DNA of 47,190 bases from a virus, in IMG/VR virus record IMGVR_UViG_3300045911_000356, positions 1 through 47,190 of that record, one strand, 5' to 3'. Positions 17,925 to 47,053 of this stretch are shown one piece after another. The notes under the pieces were generated by a model. The model saw only the letters and a program-made list of their open reading frames with translations, was not told the origin of the DNA and did not search any database. Positions within the stretch are counted from its first letter, which is position 1, and each line of letters opens with the position of its first letter. The position numbers and the translations under genes are program-made.

Positions 17925-19019
17925 ATGAGATTATTTAAATTTTTTGAATTCAAAGAATCAGATTTAGAGCCTATAAAATCCTTTAGAGTAAAGGACAACC
18001 TAAATACTAAATTATGGTCTAATTTTGAACTAGATGAGTCTGTTAGAGAACAATTATTACAAATAGCTCAGGATTTCTATGAATCAACTGAAATAAGTGC
18101 TGATGTTTTGGATATTGTTCTTTGTGGTTCATTATGTAATTATAACTGGTCTGAAAAATATTCAGATTATGATTTGCATATTATTATTAAATATTCAGAT
18201 GTTGATGAGAACAAGGAATTAGTTACACAACTTTGTGACTATGCTAAGAAAATATGGAATGAGCAACATGATATAACCATAAAGGGATATGAGGTTGAGG
18301 TTGCTATACAAGACGAACAAGATTTAAAGGATTCTATTGCTTCTGGTAGAATGGGTGGAGTTTTCTCACTTATGAAAAATAAGTGGATAAAGAGACCCGA
18401 TAAGATAGAATTTGAACCCGATGAGGATTTAATTGCTGAAAAAGCTAAGACTATAATGCAGAAAATAGATGATATTGAAGAACAAGTTGATGAAGATAAG
18501 TATTCCGCCTTCAAAGAGAAGATAGATAAGGTTTGGAAGAAAGTTAAAGATTATAGAAAGAGTGGTTTAGAAAGTGAAGGAGGTGAATACTCAATTGGTA
18601 ATTTAGTTTTTAAGTTACTTAGAAGAAATGGGTATATCAATAAAGTAATGAAACTTAAAAGATATGCTTATGATAAACAGTTTGAATCTTCTGAACACGA
18701 CAATGATGTATTGAGACTATTATATCTTATAGATCAATTGGATAAAGAAATGTCAAAGAAATCCGATGAGAGTTGGTCAATGAGTATATCATATGAGTAT
18801 GATGAGTCAAAAGATTATATTGATATACACTATTCATCACATGGTTATTCTGAGGGATTCTCTGATGATTTAAGAGTTTTCTACAAGGAAAGACCAATTA
18901 GAGTTTTAAGAGATAATAGTGGTAGAACTGTTTTTGGTGACTATGATAATAGTAGAGAAGAGAAATTTAATTCATTTGATGAATTAATAGATAATATAAA
19001 AGATGAATTTGGATTATGA
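17925..19019 (+). CDS. nucleotidyltransferase-fold protein with capsid-targeting-like leader
   Basis: A 364-residue protein. I choose the ATG at 17925 over an in-frame start 26 codons upstream because the upstream part would encode an implausible Phe/Tyr/Ile-rich stretch across the promoter motif, and because the chosen start gives the leader MRLFKFFEFKE, which fits the shared N-terminal family (F-x-E at 9-11). The segment GSLCNYNWSEKYSDYDLHII near residues 65-84 has the GS...SDxD pattern of pol beta-type nucleotidyltransferases, with the Asp pair as likely metal ligands. The C-terminal third is charged and includes DELIDNIKDEFGL. It overlaps the next gene by ATGA. If the leader is a capsid-targeting sequence, this enzyme travels in the virion. 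Target unknown. Confidence 0.72.
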   Translation: MRLFKFFEFKESDLEPIKSFRVKDNLNTKLWSNFELDESVREQLLQIAQDFYESTEISADVLDIVLCGSLCNYNWSEKYSDYDLHIIIKYSDVDENKELVTQLCDYAKKIWNEQHDITIKGYEVEVAIQDEQDLKDSIASGRMGGVFSLMKNKWIKRPDKIEFEPDEDLIAEKAKTIMQKIDDIEEQVDEDKYSAFKEKIDKVWKKVKDYRKSGLESEGGEYSIGNLVFKLLRRNGYINKVMKLKRYAYDKQFESSEHDNDVLRLLYLIDQLDKEMSKKSDESWSMSISYEYDESKDYIDIHYSSHGYSEGFSDDLRVFYKERPIRVLRDNSGRTVFGDYDNSREEKFNSFDELIDNIKDEFGL

Positions 19020-19708
19020 TAAAAATATCAGAAATAGAGCAAGTATTTAAGGATATCTTTGAGGAAGAAGAAGGTGTTGTTAATTCAGTTGAGACTGTAT
19101 ATGAATCTCCCGAAGAGGGTGACTTTTTAAGATTGGTTATATCAATACATGGTTTATCAACAGAAGATACTTCTATTATACATACTAAGTTTATATTCAA
19201 GGTTGACACTAATAAAAGACATGTTTTAGAAGATACGTTTATATACCTTTATGATATAAACTGTGTTTATCACAGGATTGAGTTTAATAATGTTGTTGAT
19301 TTGAAGAAAAAGATTGAAGGTATAATAGAGTCTAAAAATTTTGGTGAGGATTTACAGATATTATCCGACTTTATCGAAGCTCCGGCTATGTTCTTAAACT
19401 ATTATATGAGAAGAGCTAAGATTACAGATTATTCTGTTTTTGATGTTAAGTATGATCCCAAGTTTAAAACAACTCCTTGTGATAAAACTACATTTGATTT
19501 TAAGATTAATATTAATAACAACTACCATATTAATTTATCTATCTATAAAATAGATAGAGATAAAGAGGAAGAAACAGATGTTTATAAGTATCAGTTTAAG
19601 TTTATGGATGAGATTGAGACTTATGATACTGATACGTTAAAGAACATGCACTATTTCATTGGAGACCGTATTGCTAGAATTCTTGATAAAAAGTTAAAGA
19701 ATAAATAA
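19016..19708 (+). CDS. hypothetical protein, 230 aa
   Basis: Unrecognised acidic, soluble alpha/beta protein. It is the middle gene of a three-gene operon: the start overlaps the nucleotidyltransferase stop (ATGA at 19016-19019) and its stop overlaps the next start (TAATG at 19706-19710). The coupling suggests it works with the nucleotidyltransferase, possibly as a partner or antitoxin-like factor, but no motif proves it. It lacks the shared leader. Confidence 0.62.
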   Translation: MIKISEIEQVFKDIFEEEEGVVNSVETVYESPEEGDFLRLVISIHGLSTEDTSIIHTKFIFKVDTNKRHVLEDTFIYLYDINCVYHRIEFNNVVDLKKKIEGIIESKNFGEDLQILSDFIEAPAMFLNYYMRRAKITDYSVFDVKYDPKFKTTPCDKTTFDFKININNNYHINLSIYKIDRDKEEETDVYKYQFKFMDEIETYDTDTLKNMHYFIGDRIARILDKKLKNK

Positions 19709-20367
19709 TGAAACATCTTAAAGAATTTTTTAATTATATTAAGGAATCCAAGAGTATAGATAAGGAAGAGGTTGAAACTATGTTATTACCTATAAAGGAT
19801 ATGGGGTTTCGAATTTCATATTCAGAAGGAGTTATTATATCCGTTAATGTTAGAGATAAGAACCATGGTAAGAAATATCTAAAAGTGCATATTGATTTAA
19901 GTTCATTGAATAGGTCGGATATAATTATAGATGGTTATAGAACAAAGGAAATAGATGATAATAGACTTTGGGAGATATTGGATGAAATAATGTCATTAAG
20001 GGGTAGATTAATGGGTGAACATATAGAGAATTGTATTATTGACTTTATTATAAGAGAAAATTATTTTGCAATATCGCTTATTTTAGTTGGTAATAAAGAG
20101 GAGGAAAAAAGTGATGAATTTTTACTTATTGAGTTGATGTCTATACTAAAATCTAAATTGAATAATATGAAAACTGATTTCTCTTATAACACACTTGTTA
20201 GTTTAAATAATGATAATGGCGAATATAGTATTGATATTAAATCCAATCCATATTGGTATACTGATAGAAAATTAAATAATTTATTTAGGGGTATTGATAT
20301 GTCTAGATTTAATGTGAATAAGTATATTGGTAGTAATGTCATAAATAGAATAACTATTAAAAAATAA
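19708..20367 (+). CDS. hypothetical protein with capsid-targeting-like leader, 219 aa
   Basis: Begins MKHLKEFFNYIKES, very like the T4 internal-protein leader (MK, aromatic residues, then I-x-E), so removal of the first 13 residues by the phage protease is predicted. The remaining roughly 205 residues have no recognised domain. It is the last gene of the operon; a host-type promoter for the tmRNA begins 11 nt after its stop. Confidence 0.65.
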   Translation: MKHLKEFFNYIKESKSIDKEEVETMLLPIKDMGFRISYSEGVIISVNVRDKNHGKKYLKVHIDLSSLNRSDIIIDGYRTKEIDDNRLWEILDEIMSLRGRLMGEHIENCIIDFIIRENYFAISLILVGNKEEEKSDEFLLIELMSILKSKLNNMKTDFSYNTLVSLNNDNGEYSIDIKSNPYWYTDRKLNNLFRGIDMSRFNVNKYIGSNVINRITIKK

Positions 20368-20377
20368 TTTGAACTTT

Positions 20378-20409
20378 TTTGATTTTTTAGAATATTATAT
20401 ATACATTTG
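20378..20409 (+). promoter_or_regulatory. Bacteroidetes-type promoter for the tmRNA
   Basis: TTTG at 20378-20381 and TACATTTG at 20402-20409 (exact TAnnTTTG) are separated by 20 nt, as in Bacteroidetes sigma-ABfr promoters. Transcription would begin around 20415-20420, just upstream of the mature tmRNA 5' end at 20432, leaving a short leader for RNase P to remove. Confidence 0.65.
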
Positions 20410-20431
20410 TAAAGTAATAATTACAAAACTT

Positions 20432-20814
20432 GGGGATGTAATAGAATTGATTCGCGGAGTAAGTGTAGTTATGCAGGCATCGGTTGGTTAAATATCCGAT
20501 TAATAAATTAGTTAACAAATTTGTAAACGGCAACGTTAATGAAGTAGGTACTCGTGAAGATTTAGTAGCGACTCTACAAAACAATTTGTTCTTGGTAGAA
20601 GAACTAGCAACTGCGTAATATCAGAGGCTATAAAAAAAATTCTCCAACTGTTTCACACAGTTAAAAAAAGGTGAGGCTTTTTGTTTTTACTTGTTAGAAG
20701 TCTTTTCGAAATCAAGTAAATATTTTGTAAGTTTAGAAAAATTTTACTAAGCCTGTGAACGAATAAAGACACTTAACTGAGGAAGACACGATGGGCAGTT
20801 CATCGTCATCTCCA
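20432..20814 (+). ncRNA. ssrA: transfer-messenger RNA (tmRNA)
   Basis: tmRNA rescues stalled ribosomes by acting as alanyl-tRNA and then as a short mRNA. The acceptor stem is GGGGATG (20432-20438) with CATCTCC (20807-20813), fully paired with a G.U at the third pair, the alanine identity element. Helix H2 pairs GTT-AT-GCAGGC (from 20468) with GCCTGT-G-AAC (from 20751), matching the known H2 layout. Pseudoknot PK1 is ATCGG/CCGAT plus GTTAA/TTAAC (20479-20518). A single open frame starts at GGC 20529 and stops at TAA 20616-20618. Further stems (AACTGT/ACAGTT, TTTACTTG/CAAGTAAA) fit downstream pseudoknots. The T-arm is odd: ACGAT/ATCGT with a 9-nt loop. CCA is not encoded. No smpB is seen in the window, so host SmpB is presumably used. 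Confidence 0.85.
20529..20618 (+). other. tmRNA tag reading frame, 29 codons plus stop
   Basis: The only frame open after PK1: the other two stop at 20524-20526 and 20537-20539. It begins GGC, with A at -4 as in other tmRNAs, and encodes GNVNEVG at the start and VEELATA at the end. Most bacterial tags have 8-15 codons and end in LAA, so both length and terminus are unusual; Mycoplasma tags are a known long class. Confidence 0.7.
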
Positions 20815-20821
20815 CAAGAAG

Positions 20822-20850
20822 AAACCCACAATTTTATTGTGGGTTTTTTT
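20822..20850 (+). terminator. Rho-independent terminator of the tmRNA
   Basis: An 11-bp perfect stem (AAACCCACAAT / ATTGTGGGTTT) with a TTT loop and a following T-run, 7 nt after the tmRNA discriminator base. Confidence 0.92.
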
Positions 20851-20856
20851 AATTTT

Positions 20857-20890
20857 TTTGTCTTTATTTAAAGAAGAAATATTATATTTG
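20857..20890 (+). promoter_or_regulatory. Bacteroidetes-type promoter for the NADAR/methylase operon
   Basis: TTTG at 20857-20860 and TATATTTG at 20883-20890 (exact TAnnTTTG), spacing 22 nt, upstream of the ATG at 20947. The -7 box is good, the spacing slightly long. Confidence 0.5.
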
Positions 20891-20946
20891 TAGTATTAAA
20901 AATAAACGAGATAGAGTGAGTATGTGAGTAAAAAAATAACTTTCAT

Positions 20947-21267
20947 ATGAAACACTTAAACAAGCACTGGTTGAGAGAGAAAGAATATATCTCTCTTAAA
21001 AAAGAACTAGATGAAATTTATTGTAAAATGAATTCAGCTAGATATATAAGATTGCCAAATACAAGAGTTTGTGAAATTAATAGAAAGTTAGACTATAAGT
21101 TCTATAACGAAAAACATGGTTGTTATCATACTGCTCCTAAATGGTATAGAAAAATGAAGAATCGAATACAAAGAGTTAAATCTAAACGTACTCTTTATAA
21201 GATTGTTAATATTTCTGATGATTACACATTTGAAGATAATTATAAAGATGCTCCTTGGTACTGGTAA
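20947..21267 (+). CDS. small basic protein with capsid-targeting-like leader, 106 aa
   Basis: Starts MKHLNKHWLREKEY, with L-R-E at residues 9-11, the same position as in the LRR and amidoligase leaders. The rest is basic (many Lys/Arg), with three Tyr-rich segments and Cys 26, 42 and 59, suggesting nucleic-acid binding, but no domain is recognised. It is the first gene of the host-promoter operon that continues with NADAR. If the leader works, this is a small DNA-associated internal head protein like T4 IP proteins, although a host-type promoter would be unusual for such a gene. Confidence 0.6.
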   Translation: MKHLNKHWLREKEYISLKKELDEIYCKMNSARYIRLPNTRVCEINRKLDYKFYNEKHGCYHTAPKWYRKMKNRIQRVKSKRTLYKIVNISDDYTFEDNYKDAPWYW

Positions 21268-21298
21268 AAACTTTAGTATTTATACAAATATAAAAGAT

Positions 21299-21769
21299 AT
21301 GATTAGTAAATTCGAAGGTCGATATAGATTTTTATCAAATTTTTATCCTGCTAAAATAGAACACCAAGGTATTGAATATCCTAGTGTTGAACACTACTAC
21401 GTTGCTATGAAGGTTAACGACCAGCAATTTATAAATGGTAAATACTACACACCAGGTGATTTTCGTGAAATGATTGCCTCTATTTCTGATCCTGGTCAGG
21501 TAAAAAGAATTGGTCGAATGGTTAAATTGAGAAAAGACTGGGAGATTCAACGATTAAAGGTTATGAATTGGGGAGTTTATCAGAAATTCAAAAATCATGA
21601 AGACCTTAGACAAATGCTATTAGATACTGGTGACCAAGAATTAGTTGAGGGTAATTGGTGGCATGATAATTTCTTCGGTTCTTGTATTTGTACTAAATGT
21701 GGAAACAAAGGTGAAAATCACTTAGGTAAGATATTAATGAAAGTTAGAAGTGAGTTACGATGTGGATGA
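21299..21769 (+). CDS. NADAR (YbiA-like) domain protein, 156 aa
   Basis: A complete NADAR-family protein. FLSNFYPAKIEHQGIEYPSV near residues 10-29, followed by EHYYVAMK, and the later GNWWHDNFFGSC and ENHLGKILMKVR segments are the conserved family blocks. NADAR enzymes hydrolyse ADP-ribose or related N-glycosides; some remove ADP-ribose from guanine in DNA (antitoxins of DarT-like systems), while YbiA acts on riboflavin-pathway intermediates. In a phage, countering an ADP-ribosylating defence or managing NAD is plausible but unproven. The start at 21299 gives the family length; an upstream in-frame ATG at 21203 would overlap the previous gene. The CICTKCG insertion (three Cys) could bind zinc. 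Confidence 0.85.
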   Translation: MISKFEGRYRFLSNFYPAKIEHQGIEYPSVEHYYVAMKVNDQQFINGKYYTPGDFREMIASISDPGQVKRIGRMVKLRKDWEIQRLKVMNWGVYQKFKNHEDLRQMLLDTGDQELVEGNWWHDNFFGSCICTKCGNKGENHLGKILMKVRSELRCG

Positions 21770-21770
21770 A

Positions 21771-21878
21771 ATGGTTGATTTATCTTATACAAAGATTCTA
21801 AAGTTTTTTGAGTATAAAAAAAAAGAAACTTTCAATAAAGTGTTCTCTATAACTAAAGAGAAAAAATATAGAAAATAA
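21771..21878 (+). CDS. possible small basic protein, 35 aa
   Basis: An ORF placed exactly between its neighbours: ATG 1 nt after the NADAR stop and TAA 2 nt before the methylase ATG. It encodes MVDLSYTKILKFFEYKKKE and a lysine-rich tail. The tight fit argues for a real, translationally coupled micro-protein; its size makes this uncertain. Confidence 0.45.
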   Translation: MVDLSYTKILKFFEYKKKETFNKVFSITKEKKYRK

Positions 21879-21880
21879 AT

Positions 21881-23642: not shown

Positions 23643-24146
23643 TTAGAAAGGTATGTCTTTCTCTTCTTTAGAACTATCTTCTTCATCATTAGCATCGTTT
23701 TCTTCTTCTCCATCATATACAAGTTCATCTTTATATGTGAAATTGAATGTTAATATAGGTCTACCATCTTTAGTTTCCCATAATTCGAATTCAGATTCAT
23801 ATTGTAATAGTATGTCATTTTTAAGCTTTTTAGCTAAATCAAATACACTCAGTATATTTTTCATTTTTTCTCTTTTGTTGAGAACTACATATATAGATAT
23901 ATTTAGACCCTCACTATCAACATCGGCTTCTATACCAACATTTTTGAATAATGATCTAATTAGATATAGTAGATGTTGCATATCCTCACTTTGTATATAC
24001 TCATCTTCCTTATCGGGATCATATCCAGCATGAATTGATTTTTTTGAATAGTTTGGTCTTCCATATAAGAAGCCATCTGAATTATCATACTCGATCTCTA
24101 CTGGATCGATTTCTTCGAATAATTTTTTATATTTTTTTAATTTCAT
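23643..24146 (-). CDS. capsid-targeting-like leader plus SSB-like acidic DIPF tail, 167 aa
   Basis: Two end signals flank an unrecognised body. The N-terminus MKLKKYKKLFEEI carries L-F-E at 9-11, as in the shared leader. The last 25 residues are strongly acidic and end KEEKDIPF, the form of the bacterial SSB C-terminal tip (acidic tail then DIPF) that docks RecO, RecQ, PriA, exonuclease I and the Pol III chi subunit. The body (20-140) is alpha/beta and not an obvious OB-fold. It may be an SSB-tip mimic delivered with the DNA to recruit or block host repair nucleases, or a phage SSB. It is the last gene of the minus-strand head operon and directly abuts the peptidase gene. Confidence 0.6.
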   Translation of the reverse strand: MKLKKYKKLFEEIDPVEIEYDNSDGFLYGRPNYSKKSIHAGYDPDKEDEYIQSEDMQHLLYLIRSLFKNVGIEADVDSEGLNISIYVVLNKREKMKNILSVFDLAKKLKNDILLQYESEFELWETKDGRPILTFNFTYKDELVYDGEEENDANDEEDSSKEEKDIPF

Positions 24147-25545: not shown

Positions 25546-26238
25546 TTAAACATCAATTTCGTTGGCATTTATGTAGTCAACTTTTACTTGACCATTATTC
25601 ATCCCCGGCTCTTTTTTGACAAATTTTCTTTTACAGTAAACAACCGTTACTTTATTATCCTTTGGTGATTTACTATTTTTTTTGGCAATTGATGCTGCTT
25701 TTTTTATTACTTCGTTTGTTGGTAATTTATCATTTACTCTTATTACTATGTGACTACCAGGTACACCTTTTGCATGCATCCATATATCTTCTTTATTAGC
25801 TATATTGAATGTTAAATGGTCATTTGACAAAGCATCTTTACCTATATAGATTGTAAATCCGTCAATTTCCATTTTTTTAATATTAGGAAATTTATTTTTT
25901 TTAGACTCATTAAATAAACTAAAATTCATTATTTTACTTTCTTTTATGTTATCCAAACAAAAATCAGTGAATTTATCCCAGTCACCTTTTTCTATATTAC
26001 CAATTTTTAATGATATCAATTCTTCTTCACCTTTAAATATATAATAATTTGTTTCGTTTTCTTCGATTCTCTCCTCAACACAACTATAAGGTGGATTATT
26101 AAAATCTTCAATATCCATATCATCATATATTAATTTATTACAAATATATGCGTATATCCCAGTTAAGTTATTAAAGTATTTTATTATTATATTTTGATCG
26201 TCATTCCGATTTTCAATTAATAGATATTTGCCACTCAT
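25546..26238 (-). CDS. NFACT-R (RqcH/NEMF-type) domain protein, 230 aa
   Basis: The C-terminal half is a well conserved NFACT-R domain: the segment GFTIYIGKDALSNDHLTF (127-144), then EDIWMHAKGVPGSHIVIR (150-167), then KVTVVYCKRKFVKKEPG (196-212) follow the family pattern, including DxWxHxKGxPGSH. In RqcH and NEMF this part helps bind obstructed 50S subunits and tRNA and supports Ala tailing. The N-terminal NFACT-N domain and coiled coil are absent; residues 1-120 are unrelated and unrecognised. It may therefore capture or block the host rescue pathway rather than replace RqcH. The motif TTAATATATA lies exactly 4 nt before the ATG, and a terminator separates it from the capsid gene, so it is an independent late transcript. 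Confidence 0.86.
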   Translation of the reverse strand: MSGKYLLIENRNDDQNIIIKYFNNLTGIYAYICNKLIYDDMDIEDFNNPPYSCVEERIEENETNYYIFKGEEELISLKIGNIEKGDWDKFTDFCLDNIKESKIMNFSLFNESKKNKFPNIKKMEIDGFTIYIGKDALSNDHLTFNIANKEDIWMHAKGVPGSHIVIRVNDKLPTNEVIKKAASIAKKNSKSPKDNKVTVVYCKRKFVKKEPGMNNGQVKVDYINANEIDV

Positions 26239-26317: not shown

Positions 26318-28009
26318 TTAGTTAAGTAAACCTTTACTGTCATCAACTTTGATAGTCATGAACTGCTTTTGAGGGAACCAACCTACCTCAGCGATTGCAT
26401 AACGGCTTCTTAATAACATTCTTGGAGCGAATGTTGCTTCAGAAATAACAGTAATAGACTGAGCCATTAAGTAAGGTACGAAAATGATACCTGGTTGGTC
26501 AGGATTGTTCTTTCTACCAAGAACGATTCTGTTATCGTTATACTTCATATATGGATCAACGTAGATAGAGATATCTCCGATAGAACCTACTGGGTATAAT
26601 TGACCTTGAGCATTCATCTTAGATTTAACTGGGTTAATTGTATAACCTGCAATATCTTGAAGAGCCGCAGCAAGACCTCCGTTTGTGATTAGATACTGAG
26701 CAGGACCAATACGACCTTCAGTTGCTATGTAGTTCGAAGCATGAGCTATCTTAGTGATAAGTTTTCTTTGAACTGCATGTGTAGTTTCACCACCAACGTT
26801 AGTACCAGCGTAAGCTGTATCTAAGTCAAATATTGTCATATTTGGGATGTTATTTAAACCAGAATTAGAAAGAGGAGCTGATTCTCTGTTAAGATCACCC
26901 ATTTCAAAAATCTTAGCAACTATTTGCTTAGAGATTGTTTGAGATAATTCGTTAACAAGTATAGATTCCATTTTTTGAACTATATCCATACCTGTGTTAG
27001 CTTTAATGTCTTCGATTTCAGTCCTTCTTAATGCTGAACTTACTTCAATAGTACCAACTGCAATTGTTTTAGAAGAAATCTTAGGACCGATAACACCTGC
27101 GTAGCTATCATCATCTTTTTGACGATCCATTGGGTAGTTTCCAGCGAATCCTGTTGTGCTTGACATCCAGTTAGCTGAAAATCCTGGGATATGATCTTCA
27201 AGAGCTGATACTAATTCAACTGTTAAGTTACCAGAACCAGAAGTTACTGATGCTGTACCGATTGTTGTGATTTGATCAACCATTGATTGTGTTGGATTGA
27301 ATGTGTTTCTTGTTTGATCGAATGACCAAAGTGTGCTTGCTGTATTAACCGCGGTGTGAGCTGTGTTAAATTGTCTGTAAGCTCTGAACATTGGGTATCC
27401 GTCAATACGAGAGAAACCTAAGAACTCAACAATACCAGCTTTTGAACCAGTTGGCTCAGTAGCTGTATTTACAGTAGGACCGTAGATATTTGTAAACCAT
27501 CTACCAGTTAAACCACCTTGAGTTTGTTGACCAGCGTTTGCAGTTAAAGTAGCGTTAACTAAAGATCTTTCAGTTGCATTAGCAATATTTAATTTGAAAA
27601 CTTGTGGTCTTTCATCTTGAGCCCCTAAACGAGTATCATCGTATTGGAAGTCGATGTAAAGTAAATCGATTTTTGGACCCGGAGAAGGCTTAACAGCTAC
27701 TAAATCAAGACCAATTGTATGAGCTGCAATTTTCATAGCTACTGGTAAAAGGTTCTGACCAACATCACCTGAACCAACTAATGTTGAGTTATTACCTATT
27801 GTTTGACCAGCTAATAATGATGGTTGAGGAGCAACAACTGCACCCATACCTGCTAAGTTAGATGCGTTAACGTAAGCGTTTTCGTTGATAGAGTGATACT
27901 CAGCGTATTCAGACATCCAATCAATTTTCTCACTGTTAACACCCATGTTCTCAAGAACTGGAGACCATTTCTTGATTGCTTTTTGTTTGTCTATTCTAAT
28001 GTGTGACAT
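26318..28009 (-). CDS. gp23: major capsid protein, T4 gp23-like
   Basis: A 563-residue HK97-fold major capsid protein of the T4 type. Supporting blocks are KKWSPVLENMGV near the N-terminus (as in gp23 KWKPLLEG), IAVGTIEVSSALRRTEIEDI in the E-loop/spine region, a GDISIYVDPYMKYND strand at about 478-492 and the C-terminal RSRYAIAEVGWFP. In T4 the protease gp21 removes the first 65 residues after an L/I-x-E-type site; here candidate sites lie around residues 32-45 (SEYAE, SINEN). It follows the protease-scaffold gene in the conserved order portal, protease, capsid. A TTTATATATA box 32 nt upstream and a strong terminator suggest a separate, abundant late mRNA. Confidence 0.95.
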   Translation of the reverse strand: MSHIRIDKQKAIKKWSPVLENMGVNSEKIDWMSEYAEYHSINENAYVNASNLAGMGAVVAPQPSLLAGQTIGNNSTLVGSGDVGQNLLPVAMKIAAHTIGLDLVAVKPSPGPKIDLLYIDFQYDDTRLGAQDERPQVFKLNIANATERSLVNATLTANAGQQTQGGLTGRWFTNIYGPTVNTATEPTGSKAGIVEFLGFSRIDGYPMFRAYRQFNTAHTAVNTASTLWSFDQTRNTFNPTQSMVDQITTIGTASVTSGSGNLTVELVSALEDHIPGFSANWMSSTTGFAGNYPMDRQKDDDSYAGVIGPKISSKTIAVGTIEVSSALRRTEIEDIKANTGMDIVQKMESILVNELSQTISKQIVAKIFEMGDLNRESAPLSNSGLNNIPNMTIFDLDTAYAGTNVGGETTHAVQRKLITKIAHASNYIATEGRIGPAQYLITNGGLAAALQDIAGYTINPVKSKMNAQGQLYPVGSIGDISIYVDPYMKYNDNRIVLGRKNNPDQPGIIFVPYLMAQSITVISEATFAPRMLLRSRYAIAEVGWFPQKQFMTIKVDDSKGLLN

Positions 28010-28092: not shown

Positions 28093-30171
28093 TTAGATGT
28101 TTTTGAATCTTTCCATTATAGCTTGGACTTCTTTATCAGAAAGTTTATCTTCTTGTATTAAACTTTCATGTGACACAAGCTTCTTAGTAACAGATTCATT
28201 TTTTTTGAGATTTCTAGTTAACCAGAAATGCTCAATTTGATTTTCAGTTTTTAATACATCTTCTGGGTATAATCTAGCTTGTGATAAGATAGACTTTTTA
28301 GAAGATTCATTTAACTGATTCCAGATTGGCTTAATGTTTTCAGGCATCAATCTGATTATTCTTTCTTCAAGAGATTCATTCTTAGATGAAAGTGCTTCAG
28401 CGATCAAAGAAAGTACATCTTTCTGTGTGAAATAACTTCTTTCGTTTATGTGAAGTTTAACAGTTTCTTGTTCTTCTTCTGATAGTGCATAAAAGCTATC
28501 AACTTGTGACTTGTTCAAGAATTTTAAGAAATTCAAGTCAGTTGATTCAGAAACTTTACGTTTTTTAGCTTCTTCAATTAATTTATCAATAGATTTAGAT
28601 AATTCTGTATCTGATTTGCCTTCGTATGTTGATTCTTCTTCATCTTTATTATCTTCCTCTTCTTCTTTATTATAAACCTTTTCTGAGTTAACTTTAGAAA
28701 CACCATTTAATTCACAAGGTTCACATACTTCTTTTTCCTCTTCTTCCTCTTCTATATTTTCAAAACCAGCGTCTTGCAATGAAGGGAAAGATTCTTCAAC
28801 AGATTCAAATAATTTACCACTGTTTAATTTCTCAACGATCATTCCTTGATAAGAAATAGATTTGTCAAGATTTTCAGCGATATATTCAGAATATGCAATG
28901 TTGTCATCTAAATGTTCGGCAATGTACTCAGAGTAAGCAATGTTACCTTCGATATGTTCTGCTAAATATTCAGAATATGCAATTGAGTTATCAACATGTT
29001 CAGCAATATATTCAGAATAGGAAATATTCTTGTCAAGATTTTCAGCTATATACTCAGAGTAAGCAATATTCTTATCTAAATTCTCAGCTAAATACTCAGA
29101 GTAAGCGATGTTCTTATCAAGATTTTCAGCAATATATTCAGAATAAGAAATATTCTTGTCAAGATTTTCAGCAATATATTCAGAATAAGAAATATTCTTA
29201 TCTAAATTCTCAGCTAAATACTCAGAATATTCAATGTTTTTGTCAAGATTCTCAGCAAGATATTCAGAGTAGTTAATTGCTTTCTCTAGATTCTCAGCTA
29301 AGTAGTCATTGTGCTTAATAAGCTTTTCAGCTGTTTCTTTTAGAGATTTATTTTCATTAACAACAACCTGTACTTTTTCAGCCAAGTAATCAAGATATTT
29401 AATCACTTGTGAGTTAGTTTTGTTTAATTCTTCATAGTATTCAATTAACTGCTCAAGTTTTTTAGGGTTCATATTACCCTTAGTGATGGCACTTTTAACT
29501 TCTTTTTTAGTAGAAGCTATTTCATTAACTAAGTACTGAGAGTATTCAGTTAATTGTTTTTTTGTAACATAATCGTTCTTATTCATGTTAAATATCTCAT
29601 TTATTTTGGACTCATCGGACATTTCATATATCCTAAAGTTAGATTTTGGGTTTGTGTAACCTAGAGACTCATTAAGAACTTTAACACTCATTTTAGCAGA
29701 TGAGAAACCCGGATCCGCAACAATGTCATAAGTGAATAGCTTCTTTAATGAAACAGATCCATCAGATTCGGTAATACCTGCTGCTCTGGAAGAAACAAAA
29801 ATAGGACACCCGTCATCGACAAGAGCCTTAGCTTCTTTACCCCAGTAAGTATTAAGTAATTTGATTTCACCTTCTACTTTGTTTGATTCTTTTACATAAG
29901 AAGCTTTGGTAATAATGTGAGATGCTCTTGAAAGAGAAGTGTCAAATACATCGGGGTGATCAAACTCCCCATATACAACACCTAAGCTTTTAATTCTTTC
30001 ATTAAGTTCATCAAGAGCAGGAAGGAATTTATCAGCGGTATATATTCTTTCGTTACGGTTTTTAACTCCGAACTCGGTAAAAGTACCGCCTAAAACATAA
30101 TCCTTCTTACCAGCACTGTTCTCTCTTATAAGAGAGCTAGTTGAATTTTCTACAATTAAAACTGGTTTCAT
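28093..30171 (-). CDS. gp21: prohead protease fused to scaffold-like coiled coil (gp21-gp22-like)
   Basis: A 692-residue protein in the position of T4 genes 21 and 22. Residues 1-175 are a gp21-type serine protease: likely catalytic His72 in VYGEFDHPD and Ser127/128 in FVSSRAAG, with the substrate-site segment GGTFTEFGVKNRNERIY near 28-44. T4 gp21 is about 210 residues and scaffold gp22 is a separate gene; here about 500 further residues follow. Residues 291-447 are a 14-residue repeat (YSEYIAENLDKNIS-type, two heptads, coiled coil), each with LAE, IAE or IVE, which fits the T4 protease site L/I-x-E. Then comes an acidic stretch (450-520) and a helical C-terminus. It would drive core assembly and later destroy itself. 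Confidence 0.9.
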   Translation of the reverse strand: MKPVLIVENSTSSLIRENSAGKKDYVLGGTFTEFGVKNRNERIYTADKFLPALDELNERIKSLGVVYGEFDHPDVFDTSLSRASHIITKASYVKESNKVEGEIKLLNTYWGKEAKALVDDGCPIFVSSRAAGITESDGSVSLKKLFTYDIVADPGFSSAKMSVKVLNESLGYTNPKSNFRIYEMSDESKINEIFNMNKNDYVTKKQLTEYSQYLVNEIASTKKEVKSAITKGNMNPKKLEQLIEYYEELNKTNSQVIKYLDYLAEKVQVVVNENKSLKETAEKLIKHNDYLAENLEKAINYSEYLAENLDKNIEYSEYLAENLDKNISYSEYIAENLDKNISYSEYIAENLDKNIAYSEYLAENLDKNIAYSEYIAENLDKNISYSEYIAEHVDNSIAYSEYLAEHIEGNIAYSEYIAEHLDDNIAYSEYIAENLDKSISYQGMIVEKLNSGKLFESVEESFPSLQDAGFENIEEEEEEKEVCEPCELNGVSKVNSEKVYNKEEEEDNKDEEESTYEGKSDTELSKSIDKLIEEAKKRKVSESTDLNFLKFLNKSQVDSFYALSEEEQETVKLHINERSYFTQKDVLSLIAEALSSKNESLEERIIRLMPENIKPIWNQLNESSKKSILSQARLYPEDVLKTENQIEHFWLTRNLKKNESVTKKLVSHESLIQEDKLSDKEVQAIMERFKNI
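28831..29301 (-). repeat. 42-bp in-frame repeat encoding 14-residue cleavage-site units
   Basis: Twelve units with LAE/IAE/IVE at residues 291, 305, 319, 333, 347, 361, 375, 389, 403, 417, 431 and 445 (first residue), exact period 14. A further LAE at 263 keeps phase (28 before 291). DNA copies differ at silent sites, so the repeat is old or held by selection. The ORF on the opposite strand is a shadow. Confidence 0.9.
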
Positions 30172-30931: not shown

Positions 30932-32641
30932 TTAGAATTCGAATTCACCGCTGGATTCTCCAGATTCTCCACCGGCTTCTTCGCTTCCACTTTCGGTTGT
31001 TTCTTGTGATACTCCTGTTTCTCCGCCAGATTCAGGTGTTGCTTGTGATCCGGTCGTTTCGATGCCTTCGGATCCAATTTCACTACCCTCAGATCCACTT
31101 TCTGTTGTTGATCCAGATGATGATGAATCTTTTAGCCAGTACTTTTTATTTTCCTCTTTTTCTTCTGGTGTTAATTTAAATATGTGATCCATAATATAGT
31201 CAATATGGAAGTAAGGTTTTTCACCATTCATTATACCAAGCATTGTATTTACAATGTCAGCTTTCTTTTGAATGTTTCCTAATTTTTTCCATTCTTCAAA
31301 CACTTGGTTTGAGTTGAAGTTAATATCTATTTGATTCAAGAATGATTCATCATTCTTTAACTCTGGGAACTCTATTAGAATTTGCAGTTTAATTGGTTTA
31401 ACAATTAATTCCTTGAAGTTTGCTCTTAATCTATTGATGAAGTTAGAGAACTTAATCTCATCTCTTGTCATCTCAGCAGCATCTGTGAATAGATTACCGC
31501 CACCATTTTCTTTTTCAAATCTTTGAAATGGTATCTTTGATGCTCTTTTTAATGCATTGTAGAACCAAGTTAACATGTCTGACTCATTCAGGTTGTGTCC
31601 TTCTGGTGACACTAAATCCATTTGTGGTGTACCAGCGTCTCCCTCAGGAAACCATATTTGTTTATTATATGGTAAGTGCTTAGATCCATTTATAGTTAAT
31701 GTACCTAAAGTATCATCCCATTCAACCTCTTCTGAATAGTCATGTATTAATTGACCAATTTGTTCTTCGGCTCTTTGTCTTGACATACCTTTAATAGGTA
31801 TTGTGAATTTTTGATAAACTGTGGCGTTAATAATATTGAACATTATTCTTGTTTGCTCAAGAATCTTTAATTGATTATAAGGCTTTATTAACCCTTCAAC
31901 ATAAGAAGTTTCTGAATAGTCATTTTGCGTAGCATATGATATATAAACTATTTGCGAGTCTAAGAATATTCTCCTTAATTGAGGATCTTCTGGATATTGA
32001 ATCCATAAATGTCCTATACTTGGTTCATATGCTGGAACTAGTGTTTCTGGTCTTAATCTATTAAATCCAATGATGTTTTTCTTTTTATCATCATATATGA
32101 TTTCCATTGCAATAAATCCATCAATTAGGAAATCTTTCATCATGTTCCATGCTGTTATATTGTCTGAGAATCCAAATTTATTATAGATTTTCTCGAAATA
32201 TTCTTGATACTTATCTTTTATTTCTTGTGAATAATCATTTGATAATGGTTTAGGTGAACAAAAATCTTTATCGTTATATACGATAGTCTCATCTGCTATT
32301 GTACTAATAAAGTCTCTAATTTCATCCTTTATCGAATATTCTCTTAATATTCTTCTTTTATCAGCATAAGATTTGTCTAAATATGGAATAGATTTTCTAT
32401 TTAATACAGAAGCTACGGCCCTTTGTGAGAAAAAATCGTACATGCTATTTCCTCTAGCAGCTAATGGATCTTCATTTATTCCAATACCTACTTGGTTTCT
32501 GACGATCATATCGTCATAGTTCATTCCATAGTTTGAAAGATTTCTTAATATTCTACTAAATAACCCTTTATTTTCAATAGCTGTATTGATGTATATTCCG
32601 CCTGTGTTTCTTGAGTTAAATGGATTATATGATTGAGCCAT
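30932..32641 (-). CDS. gp20: portal protein, T4 gp20-like
   Basis: A 569-residue portal. Family blocks include the NLNESDMLTWFYNALKRASK segment and the following IPFQRF (about 355-380), then AAEMTRDEIKFSNFINRLRA (about 395-414), the equivalents of the T4 gp20 stem/wing motifs YFRRKLYKALNVP and ITRDELKFTKFVQRLR. It forms the dodecameric ring through which DNA is packaged. The last 60 residues are a Ser/Gly/Glu-rich tail that T4 gp20 lacks in this form. It lies upstream of the protease gene, with an inserted homing-endonuclease fragment between the two, and a TTAATATATA motif lies 22 nt before the ATG. Confidence 0.93.
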   Translation of the reverse strand: MAQSYNPFNSRNTGGIYINTAIENKGLFSRILRNLSNYGMNYDDMIVRNQVGIGINEDPLAARGNSMYDFFSQRAVASVLNRKSIPYLDKSYADKRRILREYSIKDEIRDFISTIADETIVYNDKDFCSPKPLSNDYSQEIKDKYQEYFEKIYNKFGFSDNITAWNMMKDFLIDGFIAMEIIYDDKKKNIIGFNRLRPETLVPAYEPSIGHLWIQYPEDPQLRRIFLDSQIVYISYATQNDYSETSYVEGLIKPYNQLKILEQTRIMFNIINATVYQKFTIPIKGMSRQRAEEQIGQLIHDYSEEVEWDDTLGTLTINGSKHLPYNKQIWFPEGDAGTPQMDLVSPEGHNLNESDMLTWFYNALKRASKIPFQRFEKENGGGNLFTDAAEMTRDEIKFSNFINRLRANFKELIVKPIKLQILIEFPELKNDESFLNQIDINFNSNQVFEEWKKLGNIQKKADIVNTMLGIMNGEKPYFHIDYIMDHIFKLTPEEKEENKKYWLKDSSSSGSTTESGSEGSEIGSEGIETTGSQATPESGGETGVSQETTESGSEEAGGESGESSGEFEF

Positions 32642-32693: not shown

Positions 32694-33170
32694 TTAGATA
32701 TAGAATGTTCTTGATATAACCTTTATGTCATCAGGCGTTAGGTTCATTTCAATCAACAGCTTCTTTATTTCCTCATTGAAGTTAGCTAACATCTTTAAAA
32801 GTTTTTGGTAGTCATTTACAGATTTTCTATTTGCAAATTTATTGTATTCTCTCCAAGCAACCGAACCATCTTTATTTAGTGTAGCAAGTACTCTATGTGT
32901 ATTATTAGGTTCTGATGTAAAAATACATAATATTCCATTTGCGTTACTTTCTCTTGAAACTGTTGCCTTAAAGAATTTTGCATTATTAAATATTCTTGTT
33001 TCACCAACTAGTATATCAAATGATAATTCATTTATCTTATTCATTTCCATTTCTTCAGCGTGTAATCTAATCTTTTCAGCTCTTGATTTCTGACCGTATT
33101 GTGATAGTTTGTCAGCAGCGCTTTTGTATGTTGAATAATCCAGTTCTTCAAATTTTCTAAGATGTTTCAT
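32694..33170 (-). CDS. hypothetical protein with capsid-targeting-like leader, 158 aa
   Basis: Begins MKHLRKFEELDYSTYKS, a shorter member of the shared leader family with F-E-E at 7-9. The first 50 residues are helical and charged; the middle (about 55-110) looks like a small beta barrel or SH3-like domain. No family is recognised. It sits directly upstream of the portal gene with its own promoter motif, so a head location is plausible. Confidence 0.6.
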   Translation of the reverse strand: MKHLRKFEELDYSTYKSAADKLSQYGQKSRAEKIRLHAEEMEMNKINELSFDILVGETRIFNNAKFFKATVSRESNANGILCIFTSEPNNTHRVLATLNKDGSVAWREYNKFANRKSVNDYQKLLKMLANFNEEIKKLLIEMNLTPDDIKVISRTFYI

Positions 33171-42302: not shown

Positions 42303-42433
42303 TCAGTGTGACCAAAGAAGATTAACTATTTTTTGAGATATAGATTCATCATATTCGTTAGAGTATTTTGATCTCAATATTTTTCTAATTTTTTTTGTTG
42401 GGTTCTAGATTCTAATTATTTTATGTATTTCAT
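42303..42433 (-). pseudogene. second decayed small gene upstream of the duplication
   Basis: ATG at 42433 gives MKYIK and a stop; after a frame change the sequence reads NPTKKIRKILRSKYSNEYDE and then SISQKIVNLLWSH to a TGA just before the Shine-Dalgarno of the next small gene. The MKYIK start resembles the leader of the LRR proteins. With the previous entry this accounts for the 409-nt gap between gp44 and gp25. Confidence 0.35.
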
Positions 42434-42449
42434 ACAAGTATATATTATT

Positions 42450-42459
42450 TTTATATATA
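42450..42459 (+). promoter_or_regulatory. variant phage promoter motif TTTATATATA, 4 nt before an ATG (gp25)
   Basis: The same one-base variant as upstream of gp23, followed by GTTT and the gp25 ATG at 42464. Confidence 0.55.
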
Positions 42460-42463
42460 GTTT

Positions 42464-42841: not shown

Positions 42842-42877
42842 AAAAAATTTTTCGGATTATTTTATTAACATGTTATT

Positions 42878-42887
42878 TTAATATATA
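42878..42887 (+). promoter_or_regulatory. phage promoter motif TTAATATATA (amidoligase-like gene)
   Basis: Exact motif, 8 nt before the ATG at 42896. Confidence 0.6.
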
Positions 42888-42895
42888 GAATTTGT

Positions 42896-44023
42896 ATGAA
42901 GCATCTTTTACGTTTTTCATTATTCGAGGAGGTTAATCCAAGAGACATTTCATTCGTTACACAAATGGATGACTATTTCACAGTCGCGTTTGAATTTGAA
43001 ATAGAAACAGTTGATAAAAAAAACATCAAAATTGACTTTAGTATATTGTATGATGATGATGATGTTATTGATATGTTGGATATTATAATAAAGGAAATGA
43101 ATCTTAGAAAGAAATCCGAGAAGAAACTTGTTGAGGATATAATCTACTCTGTAATTGATGTGCTGGAGGAAGGGATAATAACAAAAAAATTAAAAACAAA
43201 TTACAAGATAATAGATGAGATGTTATTTGATATCTTCAATCCTGATAATTTTAAATCTAGTAGAGATGCCGAGATAGCTTCTTTTACTAAATCAATATTA
43301 ATGAGTCATATATTTAGCGAAGATTTGAGTTATATGAAGAAGCAAGCTAAAAAATATTTGCCGAATTTTACAAGAAAATGGGCTAGGAAAATAGACTATG
43401 TTGGGGACGTGACTTTAGAAAGAGGAATAGAGATAAAACCTAAGAAATACCTTATTGGTTTGTCAGAAGGTATAGAAATGATAAATGATTTCTTCACTGA
43501 TTTCGAATCGCAGGATTATTGGAAATTCACCGATAGAACAGGATTGCATATTAACATTGGTGTTAATAAAAAAAATGTTGAGTGGAATCCTATAAAGGGT
43601 TTACTTATGTTGAATGATGTTGGTAAAGATGATTCAGTTCCATTGGTATTTAAGGATATGAACTGGAGAATGAATAATAAATTTTGTGGATCATTAATTA
43701 CATCTATTAGAAAAATAGATCCATCTAAGATAGATGATATCAAGAAGTCTATTAATATGAATGACATCAATTCAACAGAAGATTTTTTTAATAAATTTTT
43801 AACAGATAAGATAAAAGAATGGGGTTATAAGAACTTCGGATTTAATATTACAAAATTGGATCATAATTATGTAGAGTTTAGATATGTTGGTGGTGTTATA
43901 TCTAGAGAGTTGCTTATAAATAAATTAAAGTATTTTTCATTTATTGTATATGCCATGACTAACAAGGATTATAAAAGAAGAGAATATCTAAAGAAGTTAT
44001 ATAAGTTTGTTGATAGCTTATAA
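42896..44023 (+). CDS. amidoligase-like protein with capsid-targeting-like leader, 375 aa
   Basis: The first 11 residues, MKHLLRFSLFE, match the shared leader (L-F-E at 9-11). The body fits the putative amidoligase (COOH-NH2 ligase) family: FEFEIET (32-38, likely metal-binding Glu residues), RGIEIKPKKYL (176-186), TGLHINIGVNKKN (215-227) and YVEFRYVGG (325-333). These enzymes use a glutamine-synthetase-like fold to form amide bonds with ATP, for example on peptides or cell-wall groups. If packaged, it could modify a host component at the start of infection. The substrate is unknown. It converges on the LRR cluster with a 13-nt gap. Confidence 0.7.
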   Translation: MKHLLRFSLFEEVNPRDISFVTQMDDYFTVAFEFEIETVDKKNIKIDFSILYDDDDVIDMLDIIIKEMNLRKKSEKKLVEDIIYSVIDVLEEGIITKKLKTNYKIIDEMLFDIFNPDNFKSSRDAEIASFTKSILMSHIFSEDLSYMKKQAKKYLPNFTRKWARKIDYVGDVTLERGIEIKPKKYLIGLSEGIEMINDFFTDFESQDYWKFTDRTGLHINIGVNKKNVEWNPIKGLLMLNDVGKDDSVPLVFKDMNWRMNNKFCGSLITSIRKIDPSKIDDIKKSINMNDINSTEDFFNKFLTDKIKEWGYKNFGFNITKLDHNYVEFRYVGGVISRELLINKLKYFSFIVYAMTNKDYKRREYLKKLYKFVDSL

Positions 44024-44036
44024 TCAATTATTGCAT

Positions 44037-44867
44037 TTAATTAATAAAAGAATATTTTTTTATCAATTTTATCAATTCACTTTCTGTTTTAGGCTTTCTT
44101 ATTTGGTCTAGAAAATCGATTAATCTATCAAGAAAAATTGAATCTCCTTGAATAATATCCATATCGTTAAATAATTCTATTTTATCTTTATCCTTAAATA
44201 AATTCCATATTTGAAATACTGGGTTAAATTGACAGTAGAAATCACCACCAATCCATTCTGGACTGCCTTCTAGTGAAATTAATTTGTTATTGTCACAGTA
44301 GAAATTTCCACCAACCGATTTAGGACTTCCTTCTAGTGAAATTAATTTGTTGTTGTCACAGTAGAAATCACTACCAACCGATTTAGGACTACCTTCTAGT
44401 GAAGTTAGGTTGTTATTGGAACACCAGAAATCCCTACCAACTGATTTAGGACTACCTTTTAGTGAGGTTAGGTTGTTATAGGAACAGTAGAAACCCCCAC
44501 TAATCGATTCGGGACTGCCTTCTAGTGAACTTAGATTGTTATTACGACAGTAGAAATCATCACCAACCCATTCAGGAGCATCTTCTAGAGAGGTTAGGTT
44601 GTTAAAAGAACAGTCGAAATCTCCACCAACCGATTTAGGACCTCCTTCTAGAGAGGTTAGGTTGTTAAAGGGACAGTAGAAATTACCGGTAACATTTCTA
44701 AATTTAATGGGTATTTTATCCAATTCTTTATAGGATAGATCAACATCACCATCTACATCAATAGATCCATCACTATTTATAGTAAAATTTTGTATACTGT
44801 ACTCACTACATGTTGATTCAATATCCTTGTTGGATTCAAATAATCTGTATTGAATTAGGTGTTTCAT
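44037..44867 (-). CDS. leucine-rich-repeat protein with capsid-targeting-like leader, 276 aa
   Basis: Start chosen at 44867 because it gives MKHLIQYRLFESNKD, lies exactly 4 nt after a TTAATATATA motif and matches the two paralogues upstream; an in-frame ATG 11 codons earlier would cross the motif. After a 60-residue N-domain ending KELDKIPIKFRN come about 8 units of 21 residues (NNLTSLEGSPKSVGGDFYC type), a short LRR variant with a Cys/Asn ladder. The C-terminal 65 residues (FNDMDIIQGDSIFLDRLIDF) are shared by all four paralogues. It is probably a protein-binding solenoid; the partner is unknown. Confidence 0.78.
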   Translation of the reverse strand: MKHLIQYRLFESNKDIESTCSEYSIQNFTINSDGSIDVDGDVDLSYKELDKIPIKFRNVTGNFYCPFNNLTSLEGGPKSVGGDFDCSFNNLTSLEDAPEWVGDDFYCRNNNLSSLEGSPESISGGFYCSYNNLTSLKGSPKSVGRDFWCSNNNLTSLEGSPKSVGSDFYCDNNKLISLEGSPKSVGGNFYCDNNKLISLEGSPEWIGGDFYCQFNPVFQIWNLFKDKDKIELFNDMDIIQGDSIFLDRLIDFLDQIRKPKTESELIKLIKKYSFIN

Positions 44868-44871
44868 TATG

Positions 44872-44881
44872 TATATATTAA
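44872..44881 (-). promoter_or_regulatory. phage promoter motif TTAATATATA, 4 nt before an ATG (LRR 1)
   Basis: Minus strand reads TTAATATATACATAATG. Confidence 0.65.
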
Positions 44882-45771
44882 AGGATAAATTTATAATCAT
44901 TAATTAACTTTCTTAATTCTTCTTCACTTTTAGGCTTTCCTATTTCGTCTAGAAAATCGATTAATCTATTAAGAATAATTGAATTTCCTTGAATAATATC
45001 CATATCATTAAATAATTCTATTTTATCTTTATCTCTAAATAAATTCCATATCTGTTCTACTGGGTTATTTTTACAGTCGAAACGACCATCAATTGATTCC
45101 GGAGCACCTTCTAGTGAAATTAGTTTGTTATTAGAACACCAGAATTCACTACCAACCCATTTAGGACTGCCTTCTAGTGAAATTAGTTTGTTATTGCAAC
45201 AGAAGAAAACACCACTAACTGATTTAGGACCGCCTTCTAGTGAGGTTAGTTTGTTATTAGAACAGAAGAAACCACCACTAACCGATTTAGGACTGCCTTC
45301 TAGTGAGGTTAGTTTGTTAAAGGAACATTCAAAATTTCTACCAACTGATTCAGGACAGCCTTCTAGATAGGTTAGATTGTTATAGGAACAGTTGAAATCA
45401 CCGCTAACTGATTCAGGGCCTCCTTCTAGTGAAGTTAGGTTGTTATAGGAACAAATAAAATCCCCAAAAATCAATTTAGGACATCCCTCTAGTGAAGTTA
45501 GTTTGTTATTACGACAGTATAAATGACCACCAACCGATTTGGGACAACCTTTTAGTGAAGTTAGATTGTTATTGGAACAGTAGAAATTACCACTTACATT
45601 TCTAAATTTAAGGGGTATTCTATCTAATCCTTTATCAGATAGATTAACATTACCATTCACATCAATAGATCCATCAATATTTATAGTAAAACTTTGTATA
45701 CCATATTCTTTACATATAGATTTAATATCCTTATTAGATTCAAATAATCTATATTTAATTAAATATTTCAT
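44878..45771 (-). CDS. leucine-rich-repeat protein with capsid-targeting-like leader, 297 aa
   Basis: Starts MKYLIKYRLFESNKDIKS, with L-F-E at 9-11. The N-domain (about 60 residues) is followed by roughly 9 units of 21 residues (NNKLTSLEGCPK type) and the common C-terminal domain. The stop overlaps the promoter motif of the next gene, so each paralogue carries its own promoter in a head-to-tail array. It differs from its neighbours mainly in repeat number and in the variable positions of each unit. Confidence 0.78.
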   Translation of the reverse strand: MKYLIKYRLFESNKDIKSICKEYGIQSFTINIDGSIDVNGNVNLSDKGLDRIPLKFRNVSGNFYCSNNNLTSLKGCPKSVGGHLYCRNNKLTSLEGCPKLIFGDFICSYNNLTSLEGGPESVSGDFNCSYNNLTYLEGCPESVGRNFECSFNKLTSLEGSPKSVSGGFFCSNNKLTSLEGGPKSVSGVFFCCNNKLISLEGSPKWVGSEFWCSNNKLISLEGAPESIDGRFDCKNNPVEQIWNLFRDKDKIELFNDMDIIQGNSIILNRLIDFLDEIGKPKSEEELRKLINDYKFIL

Positions 45772-45775
45772 AATG

Positions 45776-45785
45776 TATATATTAA
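45776..45785 (-). promoter_or_regulatory. phage promoter motif TTAATATATA, 4 nt before an ATG (LRR 2)
   Basis: Minus strand reads TTAATATATACATTATG; the motif overlaps the stop codon region of the upstream paralogue. Confidence 0.65.
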
Positions 45786-47053
45786 AGGATAAATCTATAA
45801 TCCTTAATAACCCTTCTTAATTCTTCTTCACTTTTAGGCTTGCCTATTTGGTCTAGAAAATCGATTAATCTATTAAGAATAATTGAATCCCCTTGAATAA
45901 TATCCATATCATTAAATAATTCTATTTTATCCTTATCCTCAAATAATTTCCATATTTGATAGACTGGGTTATATTGACAGTTGAAATAACCTCCAATTGA
46001 TTCCGGAGCACCTTCTAGTAAAATTAGTTTGTTATTAGAGCAATAGAAATCTCTAACAACCGATTTAGGACCGCCTTCTAGTGAAGTTAGGTTGTTATTG
46101 TAACACCAGAAATCTCTACCAACCGATTTAGGACCGCCTTCTAGTGAAGTTAGGTTGTTACTGTGGCAGTAGAAACCACCATCAACCGATTTAGGACCGC
46201 CTTCTAGTGAAATTAGTTTGTTATTAGAACACCAGAAATCTCCACCAACACATTTATGACCGCCTTCTAGTGAAATTAGTTTGTTATTGTTGCAGTAGAA
46301 ATTCCCACCAACCGATTTAGGACCGCCTTCTAGTGAAGTTAGGTTGTTATTGTAACATTTGAAATGACCACCAACCGATTTAGGACCGCCCTCTAGCGAA
46401 GTTAGATTGTTATTGAAACAGTGGAAATCTCCACCAACCGATTTAGGACCGCCTTGTAGTGAAGTTAGGTTATTATTGTTGCAGTAGAAACTCACACTAA
46501 TAGATTCGGGACAACCTTCTAGTGAAGTTAGGTTGTTATAGGAGCAGTAGAAACTACCACCAACCGATTTAGGACCCCCTTCTAGTGAAGTTAGATTGTT
46601 ATTGTCACAATAGAAATCCCTACCAGCCGATTTAGGACAGCCTTCTAATGAAGATAGGTTGTTATAGGAACAAATAAAATCACTACCAACTGATTCCGGT
46701 GATCCTTCTAGTGAAGTTAGGTTGTTATAGGAGCAGTTGAAATCACTACCAACTGATTCCGGTGACCCTTCTAGTGAAGTTAGATTGTTATTGTAACAGT
46801 AGAAATGACCACCAACCGATTCAGGACAGCCTTCTAAAGAGGTTAATTTGTTATAGGAACAGTTGAAATTACCACTTACATTTCTAAATTTAATGGGTAG
46901 TTTATCTAATTCTTTACCGGATAGATCAACATCACCATTTACGTCAATAGATCCATCTTCATTTATAGTCCAATTTTGGATACCATATTCCTCACATATC
47001 GACTCAATATCTCCGGTAGATTCAAATAATCTATATTTAATTAAATATTTCAT
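45782..47053 (-). CDS. leucine-rich-repeat protein with capsid-targeting-like leader, 423 aa
   Basis: The longest complete paralogue. Leader MKYLIKYRLFESTGD, N-domain, then about 15 units of 21 residues (for example GGPKSVGGDFYCSNNNLTSL) and the shared C-terminal domain. In DNA the units are 63-bp near-repeats, so repeat number can change by recombination. The variable positions (the residue after Phe/Cys and those before NNLT) would line one face of the solenoid. Confidence 0.8.
   Translation of the reverse strand: MKYLIKYRLFESTGDIESICEEYGIQNWTINEDGSIDVNGDVDLSGKELDKLPIKFRNVSGNFNCSYNKLTSLEGCPESVGGHFYCYNNNLTSLEGSPESVGSDFNCSYNNLTSLEGSPESVGSDFICSYNNLSSLEGCPKSAGRDFYCDNNNLTSLEGGPKSVGGSFYCSYNNLTSLEGCPESISVSFYCNNNNLTSLQGGPKSVGGDFHCFNNNLTSLEGGPKSVGGHFKCYNNNLTSLEGGPKSVGGNFYCNNNKLISLEGGHKCVGGDFWCSNNKLISLEGGPKSVDGGFYCHSNNLTSLEGGPKSVGRDFWCYNNNLTSLEGGPKSVVRDFYCSNNKLILLEGAPESIGGYFNCQYNPVYQIWKLFEDKDKIELFNDMDIIQGDSIILNRLIDFLDQIGKPKSEEELRRVIKDYRFIL

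Follow-up and report, generated by a model that had tools for sequence, protein, structure and literature searches.

The internal proteins IPI, IPII and IPIII and the Alt protein of bacteriophage T4 carry an N-terminal capsid-targeting sequence of about 10 residues that is cut by gp21. Targeting of IPIII depends on residues 4 and 7 and its processing, at L/I-x-E, on residues 8 and 10; an Asp at position 10 stops cutting, not targeting (PMC9026906). The internal proteins Ip1-3, which bear such a leader, are injected and inhibit different GmrSD restriction enzymes (PMC12373910). In the giant phages phiKZ and SPN3US, many head proteins are processed after Glu by a gp21-like protease (PMC5694885, PMC9026906). 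A comparable leader was analyzed here in IMG/VR virus record IMGVR_UViG_3300045911_000356 (47,190 bases, a complete virus record in itself; this whole stretch is referred to as the window) and in related genomes. The leader is real, and most likely represents a new and much expanded form of the T4 capsid-targeting principle. No such leader was found described in huge phages in a literature search that left most subscription papers outside its reach.

Like the T4 sequence, the leader is N-terminal, about 10 residues long and placed before unrelated bodies encoded by accessory genes; it has hydrophobic or aromatic residues at positions 4 and 7 (partly by construction, as the search motif used both positions) and a terminal Glu, and it occurs together with head genes of the gp21/gp23 type. 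Unlike the T4 sequence, it is found on about 100 proteins rather than a handful, has several lengths, shows F or Y as well as I or L at P3 of the predicted cut, sometimes has its junction inside a protein, and is known from sequence alone. The propeptides of phiKZ and SPN3US are mostly long (often >100 residues), whereas the Mahaphage-like leaders have 8-14 residues; the phiKZ site is S/A-x-E and the leaders mostly end in I/L/F/Y-x-E, so they do not conform to the phiKZ motif.

Judged by its sequence relationships, the window represents part of a Mahaphage-like genome. It encodes a gp23-family capsid protein, a head maturation protease, a portal protein, a tail sheath stabiliser and a baseplate wedge protein. 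The nearest relatives in the phage collection were LR756502 (W01, 642 kb) and LR745206 (W02, 635 kb), with capsid proteins 77% and 76% identical to that of the window; LR756504, LR756501 (W04, 735 kb) and LR756500 are more distant. The Mahaphage clade takes in genomes of 634, 636, 642 and 735 kb, with Bacteroidetes as predicted hosts (PMC7162821). Tenacibaculum phage PTm1 (W05) and Sphingomonas phage PAU (W06) were also compared. Genes in records W01 to W06 were called with a simple open reading frame (ORF) caller that mostly ignored GTG and TTG starts, and the gene counts are therefore approximate.

All nine leaders listed by the sequence-only reading are present at their starts with the sequences given for them. 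The closing L/I/F-x-E, claimed for eight, lies exactly at residues 9-11 in seven and at 11-13 in the protein starting at 19708, and is absent from the protein starting at 33170 (MKHLRKFEE). A criterion following that description (criterion 1: M[KR], a hydrophobic residue at 4, an aromatic residue or His at 7, and [LIF]xE ending at 10-14) was matched by 6 of the 47 first-ATG starts of the window, where shuffled residues 3-16 would give 0.19, and by none of 189 internal methionines. The search pattern proposed earlier, MKxLxx(F/Y)xx(L/I/F)xE, has one residue too many and matches once in the window, versus five times when the Glu is set at 11. Three leucine-rich repeat (LRR) proteins on the minus strand (44037..44867, 276 aa, MKHLIQYRLFE↓S; 44878..45771, 297 aa, and 45782..47053, 423 aa, both MKYLIKYRLFE↓S; the arrow marks the predicted junction) are close paralogs, so that the nine supposedly unrelated proteins come down to seven independent cases. 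The LR745206 homolog of the 297-aa protein is without leader.

For the 364-aa protein (17925..19019, plus strand; MRLFKFFE↓F), a Glu is present at residue 11 as had been reported, but the Glu common to the orthologs (MIMLSKFYE↓F and MKLNKFYE↓F) is residue 8, in KF[FY]E↓F. The 219-aa protein (19708..20367, plus) begins MKHLKEFFNYIKE↓S, with family leaders MKYLHKFLQHLNE↓S and MRYLENFVTYINE↓S in relatives, and the 158-aa protein (32694..33170, minus) begins MKHLRKFE↓ELDYSTY, which is kept in many relatives. The sequence MKHLNKHWLRE (20947..21267, plus) is doubtful as a leader, the LR745206 ortholog beginning MSKHTNKYWLRE. The 375-aa protein (42896..44023, plus) begins MKHLLRFSLFE↓EVNPRD, and its domain is preceded in three relatives by SLFE, LILE or FLNE. 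Neither of the labels 'amidoligase' and 'nucleotidyltransferase' given earlier found a significant Pfam or NCBIfam match, and for the 42896 protein, the supposed amidoligase, a match was lacking in Pfam, NCBIfam and PDB. The 167-aa protein (23643..24146, minus; MKLKKYKKLFE↓E) has about 40 homologs, encoded close to the capsid gene. Most members of this family have an acidic C-terminal tip ending in PF or PW (e.g. DDEAPF, DDGIPF, DDYPW), which resembles the C-terminal tip of bacterial SSB and is possibly an SSB-tip mimic. One case had been overlooked: in the NFACT-R protein (25546..26238, minus) the motif is internal, MNFSLFNE↓SKK, read from an in-frame Met at residue 104 and placed ahead of the NFACT-R domain.

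The expectation that the leader would find more proteins genome-wide was borne out, with 111 in LR756502 and 92 in LR745206. Criterion 1 gave 53 matches in W01 (2.2 expected) and 33 in W02 (1.6 expected), with 2 and 1 matches at internal methionines; applied to T4 it found ipII, ipIII and gp61.1 (3 versus 0.25 expected) and missed ipI and alt. A head motif, M[KR][HYFI][LIV]xx[YFH], was present at the N-termini of 116/920 proteins in W01 and 91/889 in W02, and at 1/2635 and 2/2471 internal methionines; these counts are descriptive only, because the motif was simplified after inspection of the sequences, whereas criterion 1 follows the earlier description. A Glu at 8-14 was found in 109/116 and 89/91 of the head-motif proteins, respectively. 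Leaders of 8-14 residues close with this Glu, usually followed by S, N, A or G, and the commonest forms are MK[HY][LI]xxYK[IL]FE↓S (Glu 11), MK[HY]LKxYNE↓S (Glu 9) and MK[HY]LKxFE↓S (Glu 8). The residue after the Glu is S in 50/111 (W01) and 39/92 (W02), and S, N, A, G or T in most leaders; P3 of the inferred cut in LR756502 is L or I in 47/111 and F or Y in 42/111. In IMG/VR, 42 stretches had the exact first form, and all 42 open an ORF of at least 89 codons. Codons at the fixed leader residues vary synonymously, so the constraint acts on the protein. A cousin leader, MI[KRTS][KST][FY]x[IL]FE, is carried by W04, and PAU carries MKT[LI]xxLYE...NE, concentrated around its portal, protease and scaffold genes; two of the PAU carriers, gp142 and gp154, bear the annotation label 'internal capsid protein'.

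The same junction is found in the head proteins. The major capsid protein of the gp23 family (26318..28009, minus; Gp23 match, 4.4e-29) has a predicted maturation site INE↓N, present in 80/80 relatives scored. The head maturation protease (28093..30171, minus; phrog_207, 1.6e-29) is fused to a scaffold-like repeat region, in which about 12 repeats of 14 residues (YSEY[LI]AENLDKNI) follow the protease domain, and has predicted sites IVE↓N, LNE↓S and KLFE↓S; its junction GKLFE↓S coincides with the KLFE↓S of the leader. Among the K-x-x-E junctions of the protease-scaffold proteins of relatives the commonest were LNE↓S (26), LFE↓S (19), LFE↓N (5) and LNE↓N (5), and LNE↓S or INE↓S stands after the protease domain in the 55 relatives that matched the search pattern; these sites are themselves predictions. 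Other small proteins encoded by the relatives contain pieces of the 14-residue repeat and of the capsid propeptide.

In two small proteins, W01_80294 and W02_93266, a copy of the mature N-arm of the capsid protein directly follows the leader, whose Glu aligns with the INE↓N site of the capsid (E values of 5e-7 and 1.5e-6 against the W02 capsid protein); W04_730457 and L258_13861 were judged by eye to have the same arrangement. Ortholog pairs that differ in leader length mostly keep the junction Glu, as in MKYIKTYE↓SYW versus MKYIKSYKIFE↓STY and in MKYLRTYE↓GFDHL versus MIIKKYIKFINE↓EFDHL. The NFACT-R family beside the capsid gene has 32 N-terminal leaders of 8-13 residues, which were found through the protein body and are more variable than those selected by motif. 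All 32 end in Glu, followed by S or G in 31, a count that describes the chosen frame because the list was made by hand, with the border moved by one residue in four rows to fit the Glu and three more distant matches omitted. Besides the NFACT-R protein of the window, L258_13861 has the junction motif internally: read by eye, its order is leader, capsid N-arm, domain, repeat of that domain and NFACT-R, separated by IFE↓N, LNE↓N, VFE↓S and LNE↓S.

The bodies behind the leader are diverse and mostly accessory. With the leader removed, 211 leader proteins with closing Glu (window included) fell into about 148 blastp clusters (a rough count); a profile of the largest, which has 36 members, recovered 73 proteins, 56 of them with a leader by the criterion used. 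Pfam searches with 142 representatives returned only nine families with one member each (lysozyme, M15 peptidase, SET, NUDIX, two HNH models, DUF6576, LRR and Toprim). The head motif was carried by 85/457 genes unique to W01 and 63/432 unique to W02, by 0/41 and 0/43 core genes and by 0/52 T4 homologs, which excludes a general N-terminal bias of all phage proteins; the zeros hold for the head motif only. Wider, T4-like starts are seen in the T4 RNA-ligase-1 homologs W01_491690 (491690-492961; MKKLHRYNSFIKE↓S, FIKE↓S) and W02_470485 (470485-471747; MKLFKYIEFINE↓N, FINE↓N), and a packaged RNA ligase, if true, could repair tRNA cut by host defence. A DNA-primase match among the leader proteins, which would have spoken against packaging, proved to be a stand-alone Toprim-type protein (about 190 aa), and its ortholog carries a different leader. 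The L146 family had been suspected of being an ADP-ribosyltransferase, for which no support was obtained. ART-PolyVal matches behind leader-like starts in two relatives (L232 and L241) were below the curated cut-off. This sub-threshold likeness, together with multidomain cargo, recalls the injected, multidomain polyvalent proteins of phages, from which the present proteins differ in being mostly single and small with a short leader, their domains apparently separated by protease sites. Structure models of two sequences (mean pLDDT of 52 and 73) gave no Foldseek match at E <= 0.001.

A promoter-like element was found by k-mer search upstream of leader genes, and for this reason the comparison with structural genes is its independent part. 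TAATATA was present within 45 nt upstream of 95/211 leader genes, 16/31 structural genes, 4/41 replication or metabolism genes and 286/1645 non-leader genes (leader versus rest, Fisher 8e-18); for genes preceded by an intergenic gap of at least 40 nt in W02, it stood before 26/31 leader genes and 68/326 others. In the window, the element TTTAATATATA precedes the leader genes at 17925 (17910..17920, plus) and 42896 (42877..42887, plus), and it is also upstream of the portal gene (30932..32641, minus), whose product is without leader. The distance to the start codon is only 13-15 nt in many genes, which would suggest transcripts almost without 5' untranslated region. The late promoter of T4 is TATAAATA; from this likeness, and from the sharing with structural genes, we infer that the element would be a late promoter.

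The leader is probably a propeptide that targets proteins to the capsid in the manner of the T4 internal proteins. In the late phase of infection, the head of the leader (basic residue at 2, hydrophobic at 4, aromatic at 7) would let the protein dock on the prohead core of protease and scaffold, and the gp21-type protease would cut after the closing Glu, at [I/L/F/Y]-x-E followed by S, N, A or G. Further substrates of this protease would be the capsid protein (INE↓N) and the polypeptide of the protease itself (LNE↓S, K-L-[F/N]-E↓[S/N]). Once released, the proteins would remain inside the head, from which many would pass into the host together with the DNA. We infer all of these steps: docking, cleavage, packaging, injection and late expression. 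As sequence evidence goes, T4-like targeting and cleavage are well supported, though indirectly, by the capsid N-arm fusions, the shared junctions, the closing Glu mostly kept between orthologs, the internal copies of the motif and the promoter-like element shared with structural genes. The earlier proposal is supported in part; the cut that it named, L/I-x-E, agrees in the Glu, and at P3 L and I make up less than half of the LR756502 leaders. Several points weigh against targeting and cleavage of this kind. P3 is often F, Y or T, not the L or I of T4; the protease matches Pfam S77 at only 2e-4, below the curated cut-off; PTm1 has related head genes, yet no head-motif match; the TAATATA difference at gaps of at least 40 nt is weak in W01 (14/30 versus 82/331, p = 0.016); and about 100 packaged proteins would, to our knowledge, exceed what is known for phage heads.

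That number would also suit an uncleaved peptide that sorts or docks proteins to another site (membrane, replication compartment or phage organelle), the Glu merely ending a short helix; residues 5-13 are helical in the model of the 19708 protein, and packaging is itself a prediction. We regard such a peptide as unlikely, since the capsid and protease-scaffold proteins share the junction, as do borders between domains within proteins, and sorting would not require it there; internal copies favour a protease site. Still less probable is a leader that targets the prohead and is not generally cut, only some forms fitting the protease site. The wide variation of P3 would agree with it, as would the effect of Asp at position 10 in T4, which leaves targeting intact (PMC9026906), but nearly all leaders have the Glu, most have S, N, A, G or T next, and the junction is mostly preserved while leader length changes.

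Common descent of the proteins as diverged copies of one family would account for the large cluster of 36 members (73 by profile) and for the three paralogous LRR proteins. It is hard to reconcile with the number of clusters that remain once the leader is removed and with related domains occurring both with and without it, and we give it little credence. Least probable of all is a translation or promoter constraint at the 5' end of late genes, to which the short distance between promoter-like element and ATG in many leader genes would point; synonymous codon variation at the fixed residues, structural genes that have the element without the leader, and internal occurrences of the motif all speak for a signal in the protein.

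The term 'effectors', applied earlier to the whole set, is too broad: the capsid N-arm proteins and the NFACT-R protein beside the capsid gene look like head parts, and some leader proteins may be such. The accessory leader proteins are called candidate effectors because Ip1-3 of T4 inhibit GmrSD. The chances seem to us evenly balanced that Mahaphages give about one-tenth of their genes to virion-packaged cargo with a cleavable leader, some of it as polyproteins cut by the capsid protease in the head, and that this repertoire is, as part of the same proposition, far larger than that known for T4. If true, the packaged, probably injected proteins of the largest known phages, almost all without assigned function, could be listed by a rule based on sequence, and the roughly 100 leader proteins in each genome would offer a catalogue of candidates for counter-defence, by comparison with the T4 inhibitors of GmrSD (PMC12373910). 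As PAU is cultured, the head-assembly logic of the uncultured giants becomes testable.

Other features of the window include a NADAR-domain protein without leader (21281-21769, plus; PF08719, 1.3e-31) and a protein of 1147 aa (11470-14913, plus) with a long run of SNTTSNGDISNT-like repeats, which is probably a tail or fibre protein. A longer contig, IMGVR_UViG_3300045921_000484 (195 kb; L187, L188), encodes a capsid protein and a 42896 protein 100% identical to those of the window; by these identities it is probably the same phage and could be used to extend the list of leaders. A second genome-wide short motif was seen in LR756501, the only one of the six genomes examined to have it: the hexapeptide DPYGEE occurs 109 times in 94/968 called proteins (the six-frame count is also 109), usually followed by x-W, often at the C-terminus, and is encoded by many synonymous codons.

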